The notes below the pieces were generated by a model. It was not told the DNA's origin, did no database searches, and was given only the letters and a program-made list of their open reading frames with translations. Below, in pieces: positions 3,003 through 44,689 of a DNA stretch of 46,913 nt. This DNA is from Priapulus caudatus (Eukaryota; Priapulida; Priapulimorpha; Priapulimorphida; Priapulidae), in NCBI RefSeq assembly GCF_000485595.1, contig NW_014578320.1:75206-122118 (forward strand), in the 5' to 3' direction. Within the stretch, counting starts at the first letter, position 1. Each line of letters starts with the position of its first letter. The translations under genes and the position numbers were made by a program.

Positions 3003-3790
3003 CGAACTGCAGAGTATGTCGTTTGTAGACCCGATCTGTTGGTGGGGAAGCTCCAGCTGGCGAATCGGGTCTGCAAATAGATTTTTTATTACACTACGCT
3101 TTTTTTATAATGCTCGTGGGCGGATGTCGCGTGGCGTGTAGTATTGAATCCCCCGCTCGCCTCCCCCACCTCCGCTTCCCCTCCCCTCCCCACTCCTCTG
3201 CCCCTCCGCCTGCCCTTTCCCTCTCCACACGTGCCAAGACGGGTGACTATTGCGCGTCTGCCTCATCACCGAGATCTGATGCACCGTGATGGGCGGACGC
3301 TAGGCATGTTGCGTGTTAGGCGGATCATTCACGAATGTCATCTATTCAAGGTCTATGGGGGGCAGAGTGTGTGTTATTTTCACTGCTCTGAGTGGATACG
3401 GTTTGCCTATCTACGCAGCGGCTGGCTGCTTCGAAAAAGAGGAGAAAGTCTTATAGGAATAGGCCTCGATTAATATGCTAATGTCATGGAAACGTGTGAT
3501 TTGCCGGGCTCGCAGCATCGGCATTCACAAGGCACTTGAAGCGTTTCAATAAAATATAATGCTAACTAATACGAAATCTAGGTACTACCAACTTCTTAAT
3601 GTTTCTATAGCTCTCTTCAGCCTATTATATGGCCGACAGTTTCCTGTAAATTCCGTCCAAATCTACGTGCAACCGCTACGCAAAATCTACAGCTGCCAGC
3701 CGCCATTTGCTCTTCGCGCGCTCTACTGTTGCAGCGCTTGACACCTAATATATATACACTGAATATATACACTAATCATATATCAGTGCT
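3003..3790 (+). repeat. Block A, copy 1
   Basis: Direct duplicate of 6115-6830. Shared landmarks in order: GCAGAGTATGTCGTTTGTAG, a C-rich tract near 3150-3220, GATCATTCACGAATGTCATC, ACTTGAAGCGTTTCAATAAA, and GACAGTTTCCTGTAAATTCC. It ends in a TATA-rich palindromic segment. Differences from copy 2 are mostly one-base indels, which break any frame differently in the two copies, so I do not call a gene. The AATAAA inside GTTTCAATAAAATATAATGC could act as a poly(A) signal. Confidence 0.8.
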
Positions 3791-4035
3791 ATATATTAGT
3801 GTATATATATTAGTGTAAGCGTGGCCACAGTAGAGCCAAGAAAGGCAATGGCGATTGCAGCGTAGGATTTTGTAGGGTTGCGAGCGTAAGGAATTTGAGC
3901 ACGGGAATTTACAGAAACTGTCGGCAATAATAGGTGAAAGAGAGTATAGAAACATTAAGAAGTTGGTAGTACCTAGATTTCGTATTTAGTTAGCATTATA
4001 TTTTATTGAAACGCTTCAAGTGCCTGTGATCGCAT
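3530..4035. repeat. Foldback: inverted repeat of the block A 3' part
   Basis: 3530-3745 (CACTTGAAGCGTTTCAATAA to the TACTGTTGCAGCGCTT segment) reappears in reverse complement at about 3815-4030, ending TTATTGAAACGCTTCAAGTG. The centre near 3750-3815 is an AT-rich palindrome with repeated TATATACACTAATATA. Stem length is about 215 bp, with indels. Such a foldback could form a cruciform or be a trace of a snap-back duplication. Confidence 0.8.
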
Positions 4036-13191: not shown

Positions 13192-13216
13192 NNNNNNNNN
13201 NNNNNNNNNNNNNNNN
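13192..13216. other. Assembly gap (25 N)
   Basis: Twenty-five unresolved bases following A8. The right side starts in an AT tract matching the reverse complement of the microsatellite at 4518-4566, so the join is in low-complexity DNA and its order is not assured. Confidence 0.98.
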
Positions 13217-15842: not shown

Positions 15843-15997
15843 ATGCGATATGATATGACTACTAGGCACTTAGGATATGACTACTAGGCACTTAAAAGAA
15901 AAAAAAACCCTAACCCTAACCCTAACCTAACCTAAACCCTAAACCTAACCTAAACCCTAACCCTAACCCTAAAAAAAGTAGTCATATCATATCGCAT
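15843..15997. repeat. Telomere-type tract between 20-bp inverted repeats (unit T1)
   Basis: ATGCGATATGATATGACTAC at 15843-15862 is exactly matched in reverse by 15978-15997. Between them, 15908-15976 is a mixed CCCTAA/CCTAA/CCCTAAA array of about 11 units. A second CATATGACTACTAGGCACTT-like segment repeats at 15872-15893. The centre of the arms (about 15920) falls in the array. Confidence 0.85.
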
Positions 15998-21666: not shown

Positions 21667-21745
21667 GGGGGGGGGGGGGGGGGGGGGCGGGGGGGGGGGG
21701 GGGGGGGGGGGGGGGGAGGGGGGGGGCGGGTAGGGGGGGGGGGGG

Positions 21746-21797
<52 letters not shown>

Positions 21798-21846
21798 GGG
21801 GGGGGGGGGGGGGGGGGGAGGGGGGGGGGGGGGGGGGGGGGGGGGG
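21667..21846. repeat. 180-bp poly-G block
   Basis: Almost pure G with a few single C, A and T interruptions, inserted between TTATTTATTGAATTAT and ATATAGAATATATATA. The left arm (about 7270-7300) has no such block at the matching place. The proline- and glycine-rich frames across it are artefacts. A sequencing or consensus artefact is more likely than a genuine poly-G of this length. Confidence 0.9.
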
Positions 21847-27311: not shown

Positions 27312-27440
27312 CGTAGTAATTAATTAAACTAATCGTGCTTCAATAACCTAAAATTCACAGAGATTATAGCTAAGACATGTGTCTATATGTATCTAGATTT
27401 CTAGAAATGTAACTCAAATCGTTCGCGCCATATGTATGAT
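27312..27440 (+). repeat. Dispersed repeat D, copy 1
   Basis: From TAATTAATTAAACTAATCGT through TTATAGCTAAGACATGTGTC to GAAATGTAACTCAAATCGTT. Homologous stretches are at 32433-32545, 32620-32702 and 33895-34010. It ends where the Copia open frame starts, so the Copia element is truncated against it. Confidence 0.75.
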
Positions 27441-27460
27441 CGAGATGTACAGATATACAG

Positions 27461-29404
27461 ATGTATCGAGAGCGTGGCGGTGGATTGTACGCCTACAAAT
27501 TGGCGATGGGAGCCAACAAGCGTACGAAGTGCATTTCAGTGAACTTGACGACGGCAACGAAATCGGATGATTTGCAAGTGTGGCACGAGAGATTCGGTCA
27601 TCAGAACAAACGTCACGTGCAAAGATTTCTGAAATCGAATGGTGTCGAGACGAACTCAAATTTCGGTGTGTGCGAAAGTTGTGCTTACAGAAAAGCACAT
27701 CGTTTGCGATTCGGAAAACGGCCGCGCGCGTCGACAGTGCGAGAGATCGCGCATGTGGATATGTGCGGACCATTCGACGAATCTTTTTCAGGGCTGAAGT
27801 ACTTCGTGTGCTTCAAAGATGACTTCACGAGATATCGGTCGGTGTATTTTCTGAAAGTGAAAAGTGACGCGATCGTGAAGCTGCGCGAGTTTCTGGCGGA
27901 GTACAAAACACTAGGACACGTGATCAAGGAACTGCGCTGCGATAACGGTGGCGAGTTCACGTCGAATTTGTTTCGAGACGAACTTGCGAAAAACGGCATC
28001 AAGTTCTCACCATCGGAACCTCACACGCCGCAGCAGAACGGTTCAGCCGAACGAGAAAATCGAATTATCGTCGAGTCTGCGCGTGCGATGCGGTTGGCTC
28101 ATGCTGGATTCAGCAAGCGTCTGTGGGCGGAACTCACGAGCACGGCTGTATACGTGCTGAATCGTACGGGTCCGACGGGCGTCCACGGCAAATCACCGTT
28201 CGAGCTGTGGCGAGGACAGAAGCCATCCATCAAGCATCTGCGTGTGATCGGAACGAAGTGCTACGTGCATGTTCCGGACGGACAACGCAAGAAAATGGAC
28301 AGCAAAGCGGTCAAGGGATATTTGATCGGATACGACGATGATAACGGTTATCGAGTTGTAAAGGATCACAGCGGTCGCGAGATGATGCGGTCGCGCAACG
28401 TGATCTTCGAGATCGAACCGTGTGCGCAGTCGAGCATAGTGCAAGTTCCGGTTGTGTCGGAGCTAATGGAGTCGCCGGAGACGGAGTCAACGAGTAAAAG
28501 TGAGTACGATAACAGCGAGGAAGGCGAAGATGAGGTAGACGAGAAAGCCATGCCAAGGCAAAGCGGTATAGTGCTTCGTGATTGTTCGAAAATTCGCCTA
28601 CCAGCTCATCTCAAGGACTTCGCAGTGTCAGACACGAAAAATGTCGCCGCGTCGGCTTGGTGTTCCGTGATGTCGGGAGAAACGGAGCCGACAACGTTCT
28701 ACGAAGCTGAGCGTGCATCCGACGGCGACAGGTGGAAGATGGCGATGGACAGTGAGATGGACTCGCTTGCTCAAAATGGTACCTGGGAGCTGGTCGATCT
28801 GCCAAAAGGGCGCAAAGCCATCAAGACAAAGTGGGTCTACAAGCGAAAGTTGAATCCGGATGGGTCGATCGACAAGCACAAGGCACGACTCGTCGTCAAG
28901 GGTTTCGCTCAGCGCAAGGGTGTAGACTTCAACGACACGTTTAGTCCGGTGGCCAAGTCGGGCACGATCCGGATGATGCTCAGTGTCGCCGCGAACGAGG
29001 GTATGGCTTTGATGCAGTTCGACGTGTCGACGGCGTTCTTGTACGGCGAGCTAGACGAAACAATATATGTTCAACAACCAGAAGGCTACGAGGATGGTTC
29101 GGGCAAGGTGTGCTTATTGAAGCGGAGTCTGTATGGACTGAAGCAAGCACCTAGGTGTTGGAACATGCGATTTGGCTCGTTCATGGCCAAGCGTGGTTTT
29201 CGGGTCAGCAAGGCGGACCCGTGTCTCTTCATCCGGGACAACAAGCAGGGGAAGCTGCTGTTGGCGCTGTACGTGGACGACGGTCTCATCGCGGCAGACA
29301 ATGATGAGGCGGTGTTGATGTTCATTGACGAACTGCGGGACGAGTTCAAGGTCACCGTGAAGCCAGCGTCTTATTATCTGGGACTACGTCTTAATAGAGC
29401 GACG
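27461..29404 (+). mobile_element. pol: Copia-type Pol: pre-integrase, integrase and reverse transcriptase
   Basis: A 648-codon frame encoding the middle of a Copia-superfamily polyprotein. Order: HHCC zinc finger of the integrase N-terminus (His42, His47, Cys71, Cys74); integrase core with Asp100, Asp161 and Glu197 (LRCDNGGEF and PQQNGSAER contexts), which inserts cDNA into the genome; an acidic linker around 340-400; and an RNA-directed DNA polymerase domain with Asp521 in QFDVSTAFLYGEL and YVDD at 604-607. Gag and protease, normally upstream, are absent: the frame is closed just before its ATG and the upstream DNA is repeat D, so the element is 5'-truncated. It ends by frameshift near 29395. 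The base quality of this frame is far better than that of the satellites. Confidence 0.95.
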
Positions 29405-30213
29405 TGAAGATGGCACCGTCAAGATTGGTCAGGCGGCTTACGCGAGGAAAGTGTTGGAGCGTTTCAACATGGAAAACTGCAAAGCTGTGACGACGCCGAT
29501 CGTCAAGGACGGTACGGGACAATGAGAAGCTGTTAACAATGAGACTGCTTTCCCGTATCGGTCGGCAGTGGGGGCACTGATGTATCTGGCGGTTGGTACT
29601 CGGCCGGATATTGCCTACGCCGTGAGCGTCGTGTCGAGGACGCTTGAGTCGCCGGAGCAGAGTGACGTGCAGCGGGTGAAGCGTATTCTGCGCTATCTGC
29701 GTGGGACAGTGAACGTCGGCATCGAGTATAAGCCGAAGTTTAAGAGCGGTGTGCTGGAGAGTTTCAGCGATGCGGACCATGACGGGGATCTGTCAACGGG
29801 ACGTTCGACAACGGGCGTTGTGTGCCTGTACTCTGGAGGAGCGGTTTCATGGTTCAGTCAGCGTCAGACGTCAGTAGCAATTTTGACGACAGAAGCAGAA
29901 GTCGTTGCGGCGAGCGAGGCGGCGCGGGAGACAGTCTGGTTGAAGCGTCTGCTGAAGGACATCAACGGAGTCAAGGTAATTCCAGAGCTGCGAGTGGACA
30001 ATGAAGCGGCGATTCGACTAGCAGAGAATCCGGAGTACCACAAGCTAACTAAGCACATCCGTATCCGTCACTTTTTTTGTGCGCGAGAAAGAGTGCGAAT
30101 GGAAGCTGGTAGTGAAACGTGTCGATACCGAGAACCAGCTTGCGGACCTGTTTACGAGGCTGATGCATAAGCCTCGTTTGATTAAGATGTGTATTGACAT
30201 GGGTGTTAAATGA
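29397..30213 (+). pseudogene. pol: Copia-type Pol, RNase H part, broken
   Basis: Continues the preceding element in another frame. From 29397 the reading is open to an in-frame TGA at 29523-29525, resumes in the same frame through the connection domain (GALMYLAVGTRPDIAY) and RNase H, with acidic residues in SDADHDGD, TEAE and RVDNEAA contexts. RNase H degrades the RNA strand during reverse transcription. A T7 run at about 30070-30076 shifts the frame once more; the rest of the domain and its stop (30211-30213) lie in the third frame. Three breaks (29395, 29523, 30070) make it non-functional as written; the homopolymer break could be a sequencing error, the TGA is harder to explain that way. 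Confidence 0.9.
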
Positions 30214-31017: not shown

Positions 31018-31490
31018 GACGTATTGCGGCCATGATGCTGAAGCGCGCCGAGGATTGACACTTTGTGTCTTCCAATCACAGCCTACGCCGCATCAGTCTT
31101 TGATATTTTTAAATATGGGGACTCATTGGACCACCAAATTGCCGATCTCAGGAACTAGGGCATTCTGCTATGTTAGAACGGTTTCCTACGATAGAGTTTG
31201 CCACAAATACGAAAATAACACGCTGTTTAGCGCACTGCGCTACGTCTTTCTGTTGAATTTTTGCATCTCCGTAATCAGAATAAGCCCCGCCTTCTTCATA
31301 GATGGACATGAATGGGGCGTCACCGACGTGACCAGTTACTGTACCTACTGTCTTTCGCCAGCCTGTTTACTTTTCGTAAATAATGAAATGCCCGGCCGAT
31401 CAAACATCAAAGTGGCAAATTTTCGGAATTTTCACTTGCTGTCGGAAGTGAACGAGTACGTCATTCATTGAACATTAAAGATTTTCTTCA
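31018..31490 (+). repeat. Dispersed repeat R1, copy 2
   Basis: The best-preserved copy; aligned with 839-1313 in the same orientation. Starts at CGACGTATTGCGGCCATGAT and ends CATTCATTGAACATTAAAG. Its plus frame is open (to 31471), with several Cys/His pairs (YCTYC, CHKYENN), but copy 1 has stops at equivalent places. On the minus strand no long frame exists. Confidence 0.75.
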
Positions 31491-33594: not shown

Positions 33595-33831
33595 GTATTT
33601 TAATGAAAAATATTCAATGAATGACGCACTCGTTCATTTCCGACAGCGAGTGAAAATGCGGAAAATTTTCTTCTTCGATGCGAATTAAATGCATCGGCCG
33701 GGCATTTTATTATTTACGAAAAGCAAATAGGCCGGCAAAAACGGTAGATACAGGAACCGGTAACGTCGGTCACGCCTCATTCATGCCCATCAACTAAGAA
33801 GGCGGGGCTTATTCTGTTTACGGAGATGCGA
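33595..33831 (-). repeat. Dispersed repeat R1, copy 3 (partial, inverted)
   Basis: Reverse of the last ~235 bp of R1: TTCAATGAATGACGCACTCG to the AGAAGGCGGGGCTTATTCTG segment. The start at TTCAATGAATGA coincides with the 3' end of the other copies, supporting a true element boundary. Confidence 0.72.
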
Positions 33832-34020
33832 ACACTATCCTACGGGCCATAGCCGCGCGTAAATATTAGCCTATAAGCGATACCGTGCGTATATTTTTGA
33901 TAATTAATTAAACTATTCGTAAAATTCACGCGGATTATAGCTAAGACATGTGTTTATAGGTATCTAAATTTCTAGAAATGTAGCTCAATTCGTTCGTGAG
34001 ATATGAGAGTTAATACAGTT
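33832..34020 (+). repeat. Repeat D copy 4 with linker
   Basis: Linker CACTATCCTACGGGCCATAG at 33834 onward, then TTAATTAAACTATTCG and TATAGCTAAGACATGTGTTT, ending near the TCGTTCGTGAGATATGAGAG segment. Joined abruptly to R1 copy 3 on its left. Confidence 0.75.
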
Positions 34021-34088
34021 TCATGCTGCCTATAGCGCAATAGCGTATGCGCGAAGGGGGGGGGGGTTAACAGCTATCCCCCGGAAAT

Positions 34089-34327
34089 GCTATCCCCCGG
34101 GCGTGGAGGGACAGTACCGCAATGTGGCAGCACTAGTGTTAGGATTAGGGTTAGGATCAGGGTTAGGGTTAGGGTTAGGGTTAGGGTTAGGGTTAGGGTT
34201 AGGGTTAGGGATATAAGGCCATGTCTAGTACGGAAGTATGACTGTGGAATCTTGCTGTGGAAGATTTGGACTTTGAAGTATACGTCAACTGTATCACGTG
34301 ACTGTCCCTCCACGCCCGGGGGATAGC
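34089..34327. repeat. TTAGGG tract between 27-bp perfect inverted repeats (unit T2)
   Basis: Left arm 34089-34115 (GCTATCCCCCGGGCGTGGAG...) is matched without a mismatch, in reverse, by 34301-34327. The interior holds 34138-34210, a (TTAGGG)n array of about 11 units with two variant units at its start, then about 90 bp of unique sequence. A partial repeat of the arm start (GCTATCCCCCGG) also lies just outside at 34073-34084. A poly-G of 12 precedes it at 34056-34067. Confidence 0.88.
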
Positions 34328-34349
34328 AACACCCCTATACAATGCGTCA

Positions 34350-42540: not shown

Positions 42541-42564
42541 TGCTATAAATTTAGTATTGGCTGA

Positions 42565-42870
42565 AGAGGGAGTCTGATGCTCCCCCCGGTACTGCCGGAA
42601 CGTAAGCCCTGGGTACAGTCCGGGTATACCGATAAGTACCTGTACTATCTAAATATGCCGGACCGTACCTACGGCCTACTCCACCTAACGAGTGTAGGGA
42701 AGTCTCGACTACGCTACTCCCAAACGCCTAGACCCAGCTAACGCCCAACGCCTAACCCTAACCATATAAATAGTGACCAGGGTGAACCGTCTTCGGTATA
42801 CCGGACCGTACCCAGGGTACGGTTCCGGTATGACCCTGGGGACATAAGACCCTATGAGGGTCATTAAGTA
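42565..42870. repeat. Inverted-repeat unit T3 with CCTAACCCTAACC
   Basis: Left arm about 42570-42633 (GGAACGTAAGCCCTGGGTAC then AGTCCGGGTATACCG) pairs with right arm about 42791-42865 in reverse (CGGTATACCGGACCGTACCC then AGGGTACGGTTCC). CCTAACCCTAACC lies at 42751-42763 between them. A diverged copy lies inverted at 43985-44255. Confidence 0.75.
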
Positions 42871-42984
42871 TTTACTAATAGTTTCAATTCCATTGAAAAT
42901 TGGCCGCATCCTGGACCCTAGCCCTAGCTATTCACAGCGTGCATTTACTTGGTGCAAATGCCACTTATAGGCACCATTCACGGT

Positions 42985-43252
42985 TATCACGAAGTGATGC
43001 ACATATTTCTGTGTAATCATCAACGCTGATCGCCAGATTCATCGCGTATATCAAGGAATGTCGACTGATGCAAAAAACCACTAACCCTACACCCTAAGTC
43101 ATAAAGTATAACCTCTAAACTCTTAGGTATCCACAAAGTGTGTAGCGGTTAGAGTTAGGGTTAGGGTTTTTGCATCAACCCATATAGCGGAAAGTTCGTG
43201 CATCCAGTTGCATGATACAGCAGAAATCTGGCCATCATTTCGTGATACTTAA
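42985..43252. repeat. Inverted-repeat unit T4 with facing telomere-type ends
   Basis: Arms of about 110 bp: the left runs from TATCACGAAGTGATG through ATTTCTGTGTAATCAT to TGATGCAAAAAACCACTAAC and CCTACACCCTAA (to 43097); the right is the imperfect reverse, 43144-43252, with GTTAGAGTTAGGGTTAGGGT then TTTTGCATCA. The telomere-like tracts are therefore the inner ends of the arms, facing each other around a 46-bp loop. Confidence 0.7.
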
Positions 43253-43800
43253 GGCAACGGGGTTACACGAATTCACCAAATCAGCCCCAAAGCCACCAAA
43301 TCCACCCCAACATCCACCCAATCCACCCCCAAAATCACCAAATCCACCCCAATATCCACCAAATCCACACCCCAAATCCACCAAATCCACTAAACATTTA
43401 CTCGAACTCTACTCAACTGTTACCAAAGATGATAGCAAATCCACTGAAATTCACACGCAAATACCTCTGACACTTCGCCAACAATGTTACGTTGAATGTC
43501 AGAGATGGTATCTAGGGTTAGGGTAGGGTTAGGTTAGGGTTAACTGAATTACAGTGAATTCAGTGAATTTCAGTGATTGGCGCATCATTTTGGTAAATAT
43601 GAATTAAGCGGTTCGAGTAAAATTTCAGTGATTTGGGGGTTGATTGGCTGATTTGGGGGTGGGATTTGGTGATTTGGGCGGTGGATTTGGTGCGATTTGG
43701 GGGTGGATTTGGGTGATTTGGGCGTGTTTGTGATTTTGTGGATTTGTTTGCGTTGGATTTGAGGTAGATCGGTGTAACCCAGGCCAAAGGTGCCTAAGTG
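43245..43800. repeat. Inverted-repeat unit T5: minisatellite arms, TTAGGG centre
   Basis: The left arm (43247-43460) contains CCACCAAATCCACCC-type tandem repeats of about 16-18 bp; the right arm (43545-43800) is its reverse, with GGATTTGGTGATTTGGG. Paired edges: ACTTAAGGCAACGGGGTTAC and GTGTAACCCAGGCCAAAGGT. The TAGGGTTAGGGTAGGGTTAG tract at 43513-43541 lies almost exactly at the midpoint (about 43522). Asn/Pro-rich and Lys/Ser-rich frames over it are minisatellite translations. Confidence 0.78.
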
Positions 43801-43984
43801 ATTGGCGCCCAAATTTATTTATAAGTAGCCTACAAAGTTGCTTTCAAGTGGGCGGTAAGGCTCATTTATACTATATACACGTCGAATAAAGTTCAAGTGC
43901 CTGAAAGTCACAGTGAGACAGTAGTCAGTACCCATGTAAATGTATGCAGCGTAGAGTAAGATCACGAGTTGATACTGATGCTCA

Positions 43985-44255
43985 TTAAAGGGTCTATGTC
44001 CCGCCAGGGATAACTCGCGGAGACGTTACCCTGGTACATAACGGTATACCGGAACGTACCCTGGTCACTATTGATATGGTTAGGGTTCAGGGATTAGGGT
44101 ACCGGATTAGGTTAATGTAGGCGTTAGGGAGTAGGCGTCAGGCGACTCCCTAGACATCGTTAAGTGAGTAGGCGTGCGTACGTCCGGGGCATGTTTCAGA
44201 TAGTACCGGGTACGGTTCCGGGCAGTACCATCGGGGGACATAGACCCCTCAGGCG
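43985..44255. repeat. Inverted second copy of unit T3
   Basis: Reverse of 42565-42870 with moderate divergence: GGTATACCGGAACGTACCCT continuing GGTCACTATTGATATGGTTA against the T3 sequence ACCATATAAATAGTGACCAGG. The telomere-like part is TGGTTAGGGTTCAGGGATTA through GGATTAGG at 44077-44111. The T3 pair brackets T4 and T5. Confidence 0.75.
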
Positions 44256-44297
44256 ATACTGATAGGCTAGCCACAGGCACAGCGCACTTGGGACGTC

Positions 44298-44415
44298 TCT
44301 CAATAAAAACAAACAATGGGTAAATAACACGAAATGTACTACCACACAAGTCTAATGTTTCTCTACTCCTCTTTCGGCTATCTATTCGCCCGATAAATTT
44401 CCTGTAAATGCGGTT
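44298..44415 (+). repeat. Diverged copy of the block A 3' part
   Basis: CAATAAAAACAAACAATGGG through ACGAAATGTACTACCAC, TAATGTTTCTCTACTC and GATAAATTTCCTGTAAATGC follows the order of 3548-3665 with substitutions rather than indels, roughly 75% alike. This is an older copy than those in the first 14 kb. Confidence 0.65.
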
Positions 44416-44518
44416 CAGAAGATGCCTCCTCTGGCGCAACACAAAAGTACGCACAAGTACACACACACAGCGCCGCTGTGGCAGCAAACAACAAGAATAA
44501 AAAGAGCGATGTGCTATG

Positions 44519-44681
44519 ATGTCTGCATCTCGGGCACGGTCTTCGCATTCCCTACAATGCCCGGCAAGTTTCCTAACCCTACAACCCTAACCCTTGATTT
44601 ACCTTGAGATAGACGCTGAAAATTAAAAAGCTGCCGGGCCATTTAGGAAATCGAAGACCCGTGCCCGGCAGTCGTCAGATA
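44519..44681. repeat. Inverted-repeat unit T6 with CCTAACCCTACAACCCTAACCC
   Basis: Left arm CGGGCACGGTCTTCGCATTC then CCTACAATGCCCGGCA (44530-44565) pairs with right arm TGCCGGGCCATTTAGGAAAT then CGAAGACCCGTGCCCGGCA (44632-44670). The tract CCTAACCCTACAACCCTAAC lies at 44572-44591, close to the midpoint. Confidence 0.78.
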
Positions 44682-44689
44682 TATGATCG

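Follow-up and report, generated by a model that had tools for sequence, protein, structure and literature searches.

In foldback elements, among them FB of Drosophila and Tetris, long arms that contain short tandem sub-repeats enclose a small middle part, and Mutator-like elements have a target-site duplication of about 9 bp. MITEs that contain tandem repeats have reportedly been described in a clam. Short interstitial telomeric tracts of rodents and primates were inserted during the repair of breaks, with telomerase implicated, as stated in the accessible part of one report (PMC2246262), which in connection with telomerase also discusses microhomology of 1–5 nt at the junctions. According to the accessible text of a second study (PMC8537989), 6 of the 27 TERC-ITSs from primates and rodents lie within transposable elements, which does not amount to an enrichment, and its authors' suggestion is that these sequences were not spread by transposons. 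The available portion of a review (PMC9693754) includes transposon remnants among the proposed origins of interstitial telomere tracts. No description of telomere tracts inside terminal-inverted-repeat elements was found among the titles and abstract openings of the literature within reach, which left out most subscription journals.

The window analyzed here is a 46,913-nucleotide (47-kb) stretch of the Priapulus caudatus genome (contig NW_014578320.1, positions 75,206 to 122,118). It contains eight clusters of TTAGGG/CCCTAA repeats, each defined by at least four matches to the telomere hexamer, which make up seven sites (one unit, T4, carries two clusters). In the whole window, TTAGGGTTAGG occurs 14 times, overlapping occurrences counted, with 0.01 expected. 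The tracts are short and partly degenerate; they are called telomere-type by their TTAGGG motif, which may not be the telomere repeat of the host itself. Each of the seven sites is enclosed by an inverted-repeat unit of 155–521 bp with terminal inverted repeats (7/7). Five of these units are found at 42.5–44.7 kb, and the other two, T1 and T2, at 15.9 and 34.1 kb, respectively. All counts that follow refer to this one 47-kb window and these seven sites, five of which are clustered within 2 kb. Similar to the break-inserted sequences of PMC2246262 and the TERC-ITSs of PMC8537989, the Priapulus tracts are short, internal, TTAGGG-type and located at dispersed sites. The inverted arms at all seven sites set them apart, as the accessible main texts of the two papers mention neither palindromes nor inverted repeats.

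The two isolated units have exact arms. T1 (15843–15997) is bounded by 21-bp terminal inverted repeats (15843–15863 and 15977–15997, 21/21 identical) that surround 67 bp of CCCTAA-type repeats (15906–15972, minus strand), including CCTAA and CCCTAAA variants. T2 (34088–34328) is bounded by 28-bp terminal inverted repeats (34088–34115 and 34301–34328, 28/28 identical), and its core of about 12 TTAGGG repeats (34138–34210, plus strand) has degenerate repeats in its left part and perfect ones in its right part. With these two tracts likewise lying between exact inverted repeats, the pattern is wider than that described in the first-pass annotation of this DNA, which had reported five consecutive inverted-repeat units at 42.5–44.7 kb, each with a TTAGGG/CCCTAA tract.

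The five units are recovered at that place by self-alignment of the sequence to its reverse complement, in the order T3, T4, T5, inverted T3, T6, and the last six clusters of the scan fall into them. The two copies of T3 are described below. T4 (42985–43247) is the unit with two tracts, a left one in the CCCTAA sense (43081–43097, minus strand) and a right one in the TTAGGG sense (43147–43168, plus strand), which are aligned with each other in the arms. T5 (43260–43780) is a foldback-like unit with arms of about 250 bp and a core at 43513–43542 (plus strand). T6 (44507–44689) has its best-matching arms at 44531–44566 and 44632–44667 and its core at 44572–44594 (minus strand). The claim that the tracts sit at or near the centers of the palindromes holds for T4, T5 and T6, in which they are nearly central (7.2, 7.5 and 15 bp from the unit midpoint), but not for T3, the tract of which is off-center by 46.5 bp in the first copy and by 21.5 bp in the inverted copy.

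The arms of T5 contain short tandem sub-repeats (TRF periods of 21 and 42–44). In this respect, and in its long inverted arms and small middle, T5 resembles foldback elements, but unlike in Drosophila FB and Tetris the middle is a telomere tract. The units as a set also share their short length, terminal inverted repeats and an internal tandem repeat with MITEs that have a tandem-repeat core. What sets them apart is the telomeric motif of all seven cores, which extends over five or six arm families.

In agreement with the first-pass annotation, the arms differ among the units. In 120 comparisons, the unit ends are unlike each other, save for a weak likeness between the ends of T1 and T6 (15843–15997 and 44507–44689; p of 0.002, uncorrected and picked from the 120). 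On these grounds the units look like several families and not one class by descent, and T1 and T6 perhaps belong to one superfamily. The window holds no further copies of the T1, T2, T4, T5 or T6 arms. Exact-pattern scans with the T3 core, the T2 arm and the T1 arm gave no match in a collection of viral sequences (viral_contigs), and the T2 arm gave none in a second collection (genome_contigs); both collections are viral or prokaryotic, so these scans are little informative. T4/T5 and inverted T3/T6 are crossed by stop-to-stop frames of 112 and 159 amino acids, respectively. They have no match in Pfam, and as the sequence there is error-rich, the frames tell little.

The association of tracts with arms was evaluated by giving each position the score of the highest-scoring inverted repeat that straddles it within 280 bp. 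The seven tract sites score 38–153 (40 for T1, 56 for T2 and 153 for T5), and the scores at 3664 random positions outside the units average 20, with the 99th percentile at 39, so the earlier assertion that the tracts lie inside palindromes beyond chance is borne out. All 36 random positions that score at least 40 derive from a palindrome at 3525–4029 or from a 22-bp satellite near 23.5 kb. At a threshold of 38, which is the lowest score of the seven telomere-type sites and makes the contrast partly post hoc, 7/7 of these sites pass, compared to 1/42 other TRF arrays and 0/52 other short tandems. The Fisher test gives 3e-9 for 7/7 versus 0/52 short tandems, 8e-8 for 7/7 versus 1/43 arrays (43 being the control count of the first run) and 5e-7 for 6/6 families versus 1/43 when T3 is counted once. 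The first control run masked short runs more strictly, which left T2 with a score of 34, below the threshold, and the control was repeated with the mask used for random positions. The controls exclude arrays longer than 400 bp (2 of 50), tandems longer than 120 bp, low-complexity units and anything that overlaps the T units.

The single control array that passes is an AT array at the center of the 3525–4029 palindrome. This palindrome is 505 bp long, has an AT-rich central repeat and no telomere tract, and carries GCATTCA (7 bp) on both sides (null P of 0.05).

Thus, in this window the link to inverted arms belongs to telomere repeats and not to tandem repeats as such. This bears on the idea that the tracts are products of ordinary microsatellite slippage that grew in the cores of miniature elements, with the telomere motif being one among many. 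Short and partly degenerate tracts fit such growth, and the existence of tandem-repeat-containing MITEs, for example those reported from the clam, is in line with it, but straddling arms at only 1/42 other arrays make the motif specific in this window, and we consider slippage growth a quite unlikely source of the pattern.

T3 is the unit that is present twice. Its first copy (42559–42862, plus strand) is foldback-like with long imperfect arms and has its tract at 42751–42763 (minus strand). The second copy (43980–44254, minus strand), identified by self-alignment, is in the opposite orientation, and its tract (44078–44113, plus strand) consists of a cluster at 44078–44100 and degenerate repeats that can be followed by eye to about 44113. 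The copies align over 253 bases with 90.5% identity without gaps, the tract occupies the matching place in each of them, and a tract-bearing stretch is identical at 29 of 30 positions.

Both T3 copies are flanked by 9-bp direct repeats that resemble target-site duplications. At the second copy, GATACTGAT is found on the left (43971–43979) and on the right (44255–44263) with 9/9 identity (null P of 0.011). At the first copy, TTTAGTATT on the left (42550–42558) and TTAAGTATT on the right (42864–42872) match at 8/9 positions, which is weak on its own (null P of 0.05–0.15). The sequences beyond the direct repeats are not alike between the two copies (p of 0.41, 0.19, 0.82 and 0.38). Different 9-bp direct repeats and unrelated flanks around the two copies argue that T3 moved as an element with the tract on board, and two insertions, each including the tract, would most simply account for this arrangement. 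A single segmental duplication as the source of the two copies is ruled out by the unrelated flanks. The pentamer AGTAT is common to both sites, inside the direct repeats, and could be either a target preference or a part of the element. T3 is similar to Mutator-like non-autonomous elements in the 9-bp direct repeats, putative target-site duplications, at both copies (9/9 and 8/9) and in its long inverted arms. At the same time, such 9-bp repeats are found at T3 only, and the likeness to Mutator-like elements consists of repeat length and arms. Compared to the TERC-ITSs, as they are described in the accessible text of PMC8537989, T3 differs in that it appears to have carried its tract to two places.

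The explanation we favor is that the units are, rather probably, several families of short non-autonomous terminal-inverted-repeat elements of the MITE or foldback type with a telomere-repeat core. The first-pass annotation had offered a class of telomere-recruiting foldback elements as one possible origin. This proposal survives in kind, given the seven of seven sites, the T3 copies that differ in their direct repeats and flanks, and the dissimilar ends of the units, but not as a single class by descent, as the units look like several families.

The main rival reverses the order of events: a pre-existing tract, prone to form G-quadruplexes, would stall the replication fork, upon which the nascent strand would snap back and copy itself, creating an inverted repeat without transposition. 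Such a process accounts for arms that vary between units and for near-central tracts. It also accounts for the flanks of T1, T2, T4, T5 and T6, where no convincing direct repeats were found. At T1 and T2, the missing direct repeats argue against transposition with a long target duplication: since the sequence there looks accurate, a direct repeat should be visible, unless the duplication is 2–4 bp or the true ends are elsewhere. Fork stalling does not account for the dissimilar flanks and the differing 9-bp direct repeats of the two T3 copies, nor for the apparent nesting of T4 in T5. On balance, we regard it as unlikely, though less so than slippage growth.

The ends of T2 display an additional feature. 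The end motif GCTATCCCCCGG recurs just beyond the left arm (34073–34090), and if the outer copy is taken as the end of the unit, AACA is found on both sides.

The nesting concerns T5, whose left arm has an outer extension into which T4 is apparently inserted. When T4 is excised, the T5 arms align further outward, a result reached by 1 of 300 controls with boundaries tuned in the same way. Judged by the outer flanks alone, the nesting is not significant, as 8% of random window pairs score equally high.

The orientation of the tracts speaks to another possible origin, the head-to-head fusion of telomere-bearing sister ends, which the first-pass annotation had also put forward, with the joined ends later internalized. 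In favor of this origin, minisatellites abound in the window, as they can in subtelomeres. However, head-to-head joining gives the order TTAGGG...CCCTAA, which is found in 0/7 units: the tract has a single sense in 6/7 units, and in T4, which alone has tracts on both sides, the order is reversed, CCCTAA...TTAGGG. The occurrence of T3 at two places with flanking direct repeats also disagrees with fused ends. Fused or healed chromosome ends are thus an extremely improbable source of the units, and sister-end fusion proper is ruled out by tract orientation. Hairpin-capped ends that were healed and later captured, a further suggestion made earlier, find no direct support in this window.

The quality of the sequence sets limits on how the arms of T3–T6 can be read. 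Over 427 aligned bases, these arms taken together show 38 mismatches and 60 gap openings (8.9 mismatches and 14.1 gap openings per 100 aligned bases), a gap-to-mismatch ratio of 1.58. Three dispersed-repeat pairs in the window have 68 mismatches and 18 gap openings in 563 bases, a ratio of 0.26. A dispersed repeat of about 220 bp is found at 1089–1312, 31260–31476 and 33597–33832 with about 87% identity without gaps and divergence of the ordinary substitution type.

Indel-rich sequence occurs in other parts of the window. A 53-bp satellite is perfectly regular at 1532–1698 and then indel-ridden at 1707–2994 (ratio of 4.73), and the satellite (1532–2994) likely marks a boundary between accurate and uncorrected sequence. 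Further on is a nested mirror structure (3525–4029, 3763–4029/6574–6831, 3817–4525/13217–13996 and 6832–11484/17228–22310), the arms of which differ mostly by short indels. The only N run of the window, 25 N at 13192–13216, lies within this structure; we take a run of exactly 25 to be the mark of a gap-filling program. The structure itself is likely composed of uncorrected or chimeric long reads used in gap filling, and indel-rich sequence together with just one 25-N run suggests that uncorrected long reads were used to fill gaps. A 180-bp stretch with 91% G at 21667–21846 may be an artefact of reads or filling.

The palindromes at 42.5–44.7 kb could have the same source, that is, chimeric or fold-back long reads that fill a gap without correction. 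The indel-rich T3–T6 arms, with their gap-to-mismatch ratio far from that of the dispersed-repeat pairs, fit such an artefact, as do the 25-N run and the large indel-rich mirror structure at 3.5–22 kb. A fold-back read, however, would also mirror the sequence away from its center, and no mirroring is found in the 150-bp flanks of 7/7 units (p of 0.22–0.99). Unrelated units that stand one after another are not expected from a read artefact, which also gives no reason for the telomeric nature of the tracts. T1 and T2 share the architecture with exact arms, and both are taken as accurate because of these arms and, in T1, an exact 22-bp tandem. Furthermore, over 4505 bases the mirror pairs at 3.5–22 kb show 168 mismatches (3.7%) and 481 gap openings, and the gap-to-mismatch ratio is lower in the T arms than in these pairs (p of 0.01). 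As the mismatch rate in the T arms (8.9%) exceeds that in the mirror pairs, part of the T3–T6 arm divergence is real. Much of it is likely error, with the arms nearer to identity than they appear. A read artefact at 42.5–44.7 kb is very unlikely, somewhat more so than slippage growth. As an account of the whole pattern, a pure read artefact is ruled out by T1, T2 and the unmirrored flanks, and the caveat stays for the divergence of the T3–T6 arms.

Returning to mobile elements with a telomere core, the following mechanism can be proposed. A transposase acting in trans would move the units by their arms, and T1, T2, T4, T5 and T6 would be elements of the same kind as T3. The core would arise from a break inside an element, caused for example by abortive gap repair or by breakage of an extruded hairpin, and repaired with telomere repeats either by telomerase or by copying. 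Transposition would then spread arms and core together. The orientation of T4 is unlike the product of direct telomerase addition to both stubs, and this unit would require a later inverted duplication of a half-unit.

A more far-reaching version of this mechanism is that telomerase generates new transposons: when terminal-inverted-repeat elements break in the middle and are sealed with telomere repeats, deletion derivatives with a telomere core would arise and multiply, and transposition would be the main source of interstitial telomere sequence in this genome, ahead of chromosome fusion or direct break repair. We put this version forward tentatively, as a doubtful possibility that we would rank only slightly above fork stalling.

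Other mobile-element sequence in the window belongs to a Ty1/copia-type retroelement, the polyprotein frames of which are located at 27440–30170 (Pfam RVT_2 and rve). Among the best 120 of 505 matches to the frame at 27503–29404, the top one has 58% identity, and the closest named relatives are from spiders, a pseudoscorpion and plant bugs (44–49% identity). In a Pfam scan of four open frames, the copia frame alone gave a match, and Rfam and tRNA scans of the window were empty.

The spread of interstitial telomere tracts by transposable elements has already been proposed, as the available portion of the review indicates (PMC9693754), and the accessible text on TERC-ITSs (PMC8537989) argues against it for a single class, 27 loci from primates and rodents. 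Here, each tract found in 47 kb lies inside an inverted-repeat unit, and it is likely that small mobile DNA elements take up fragments of chromosome-end sequence and spread them. If this is true genome-wide, mobile elements would distribute telomere sequence along the chromosomes, and an internal telomere tract in such genomes would no longer by itself point to a past chromosome fusion.
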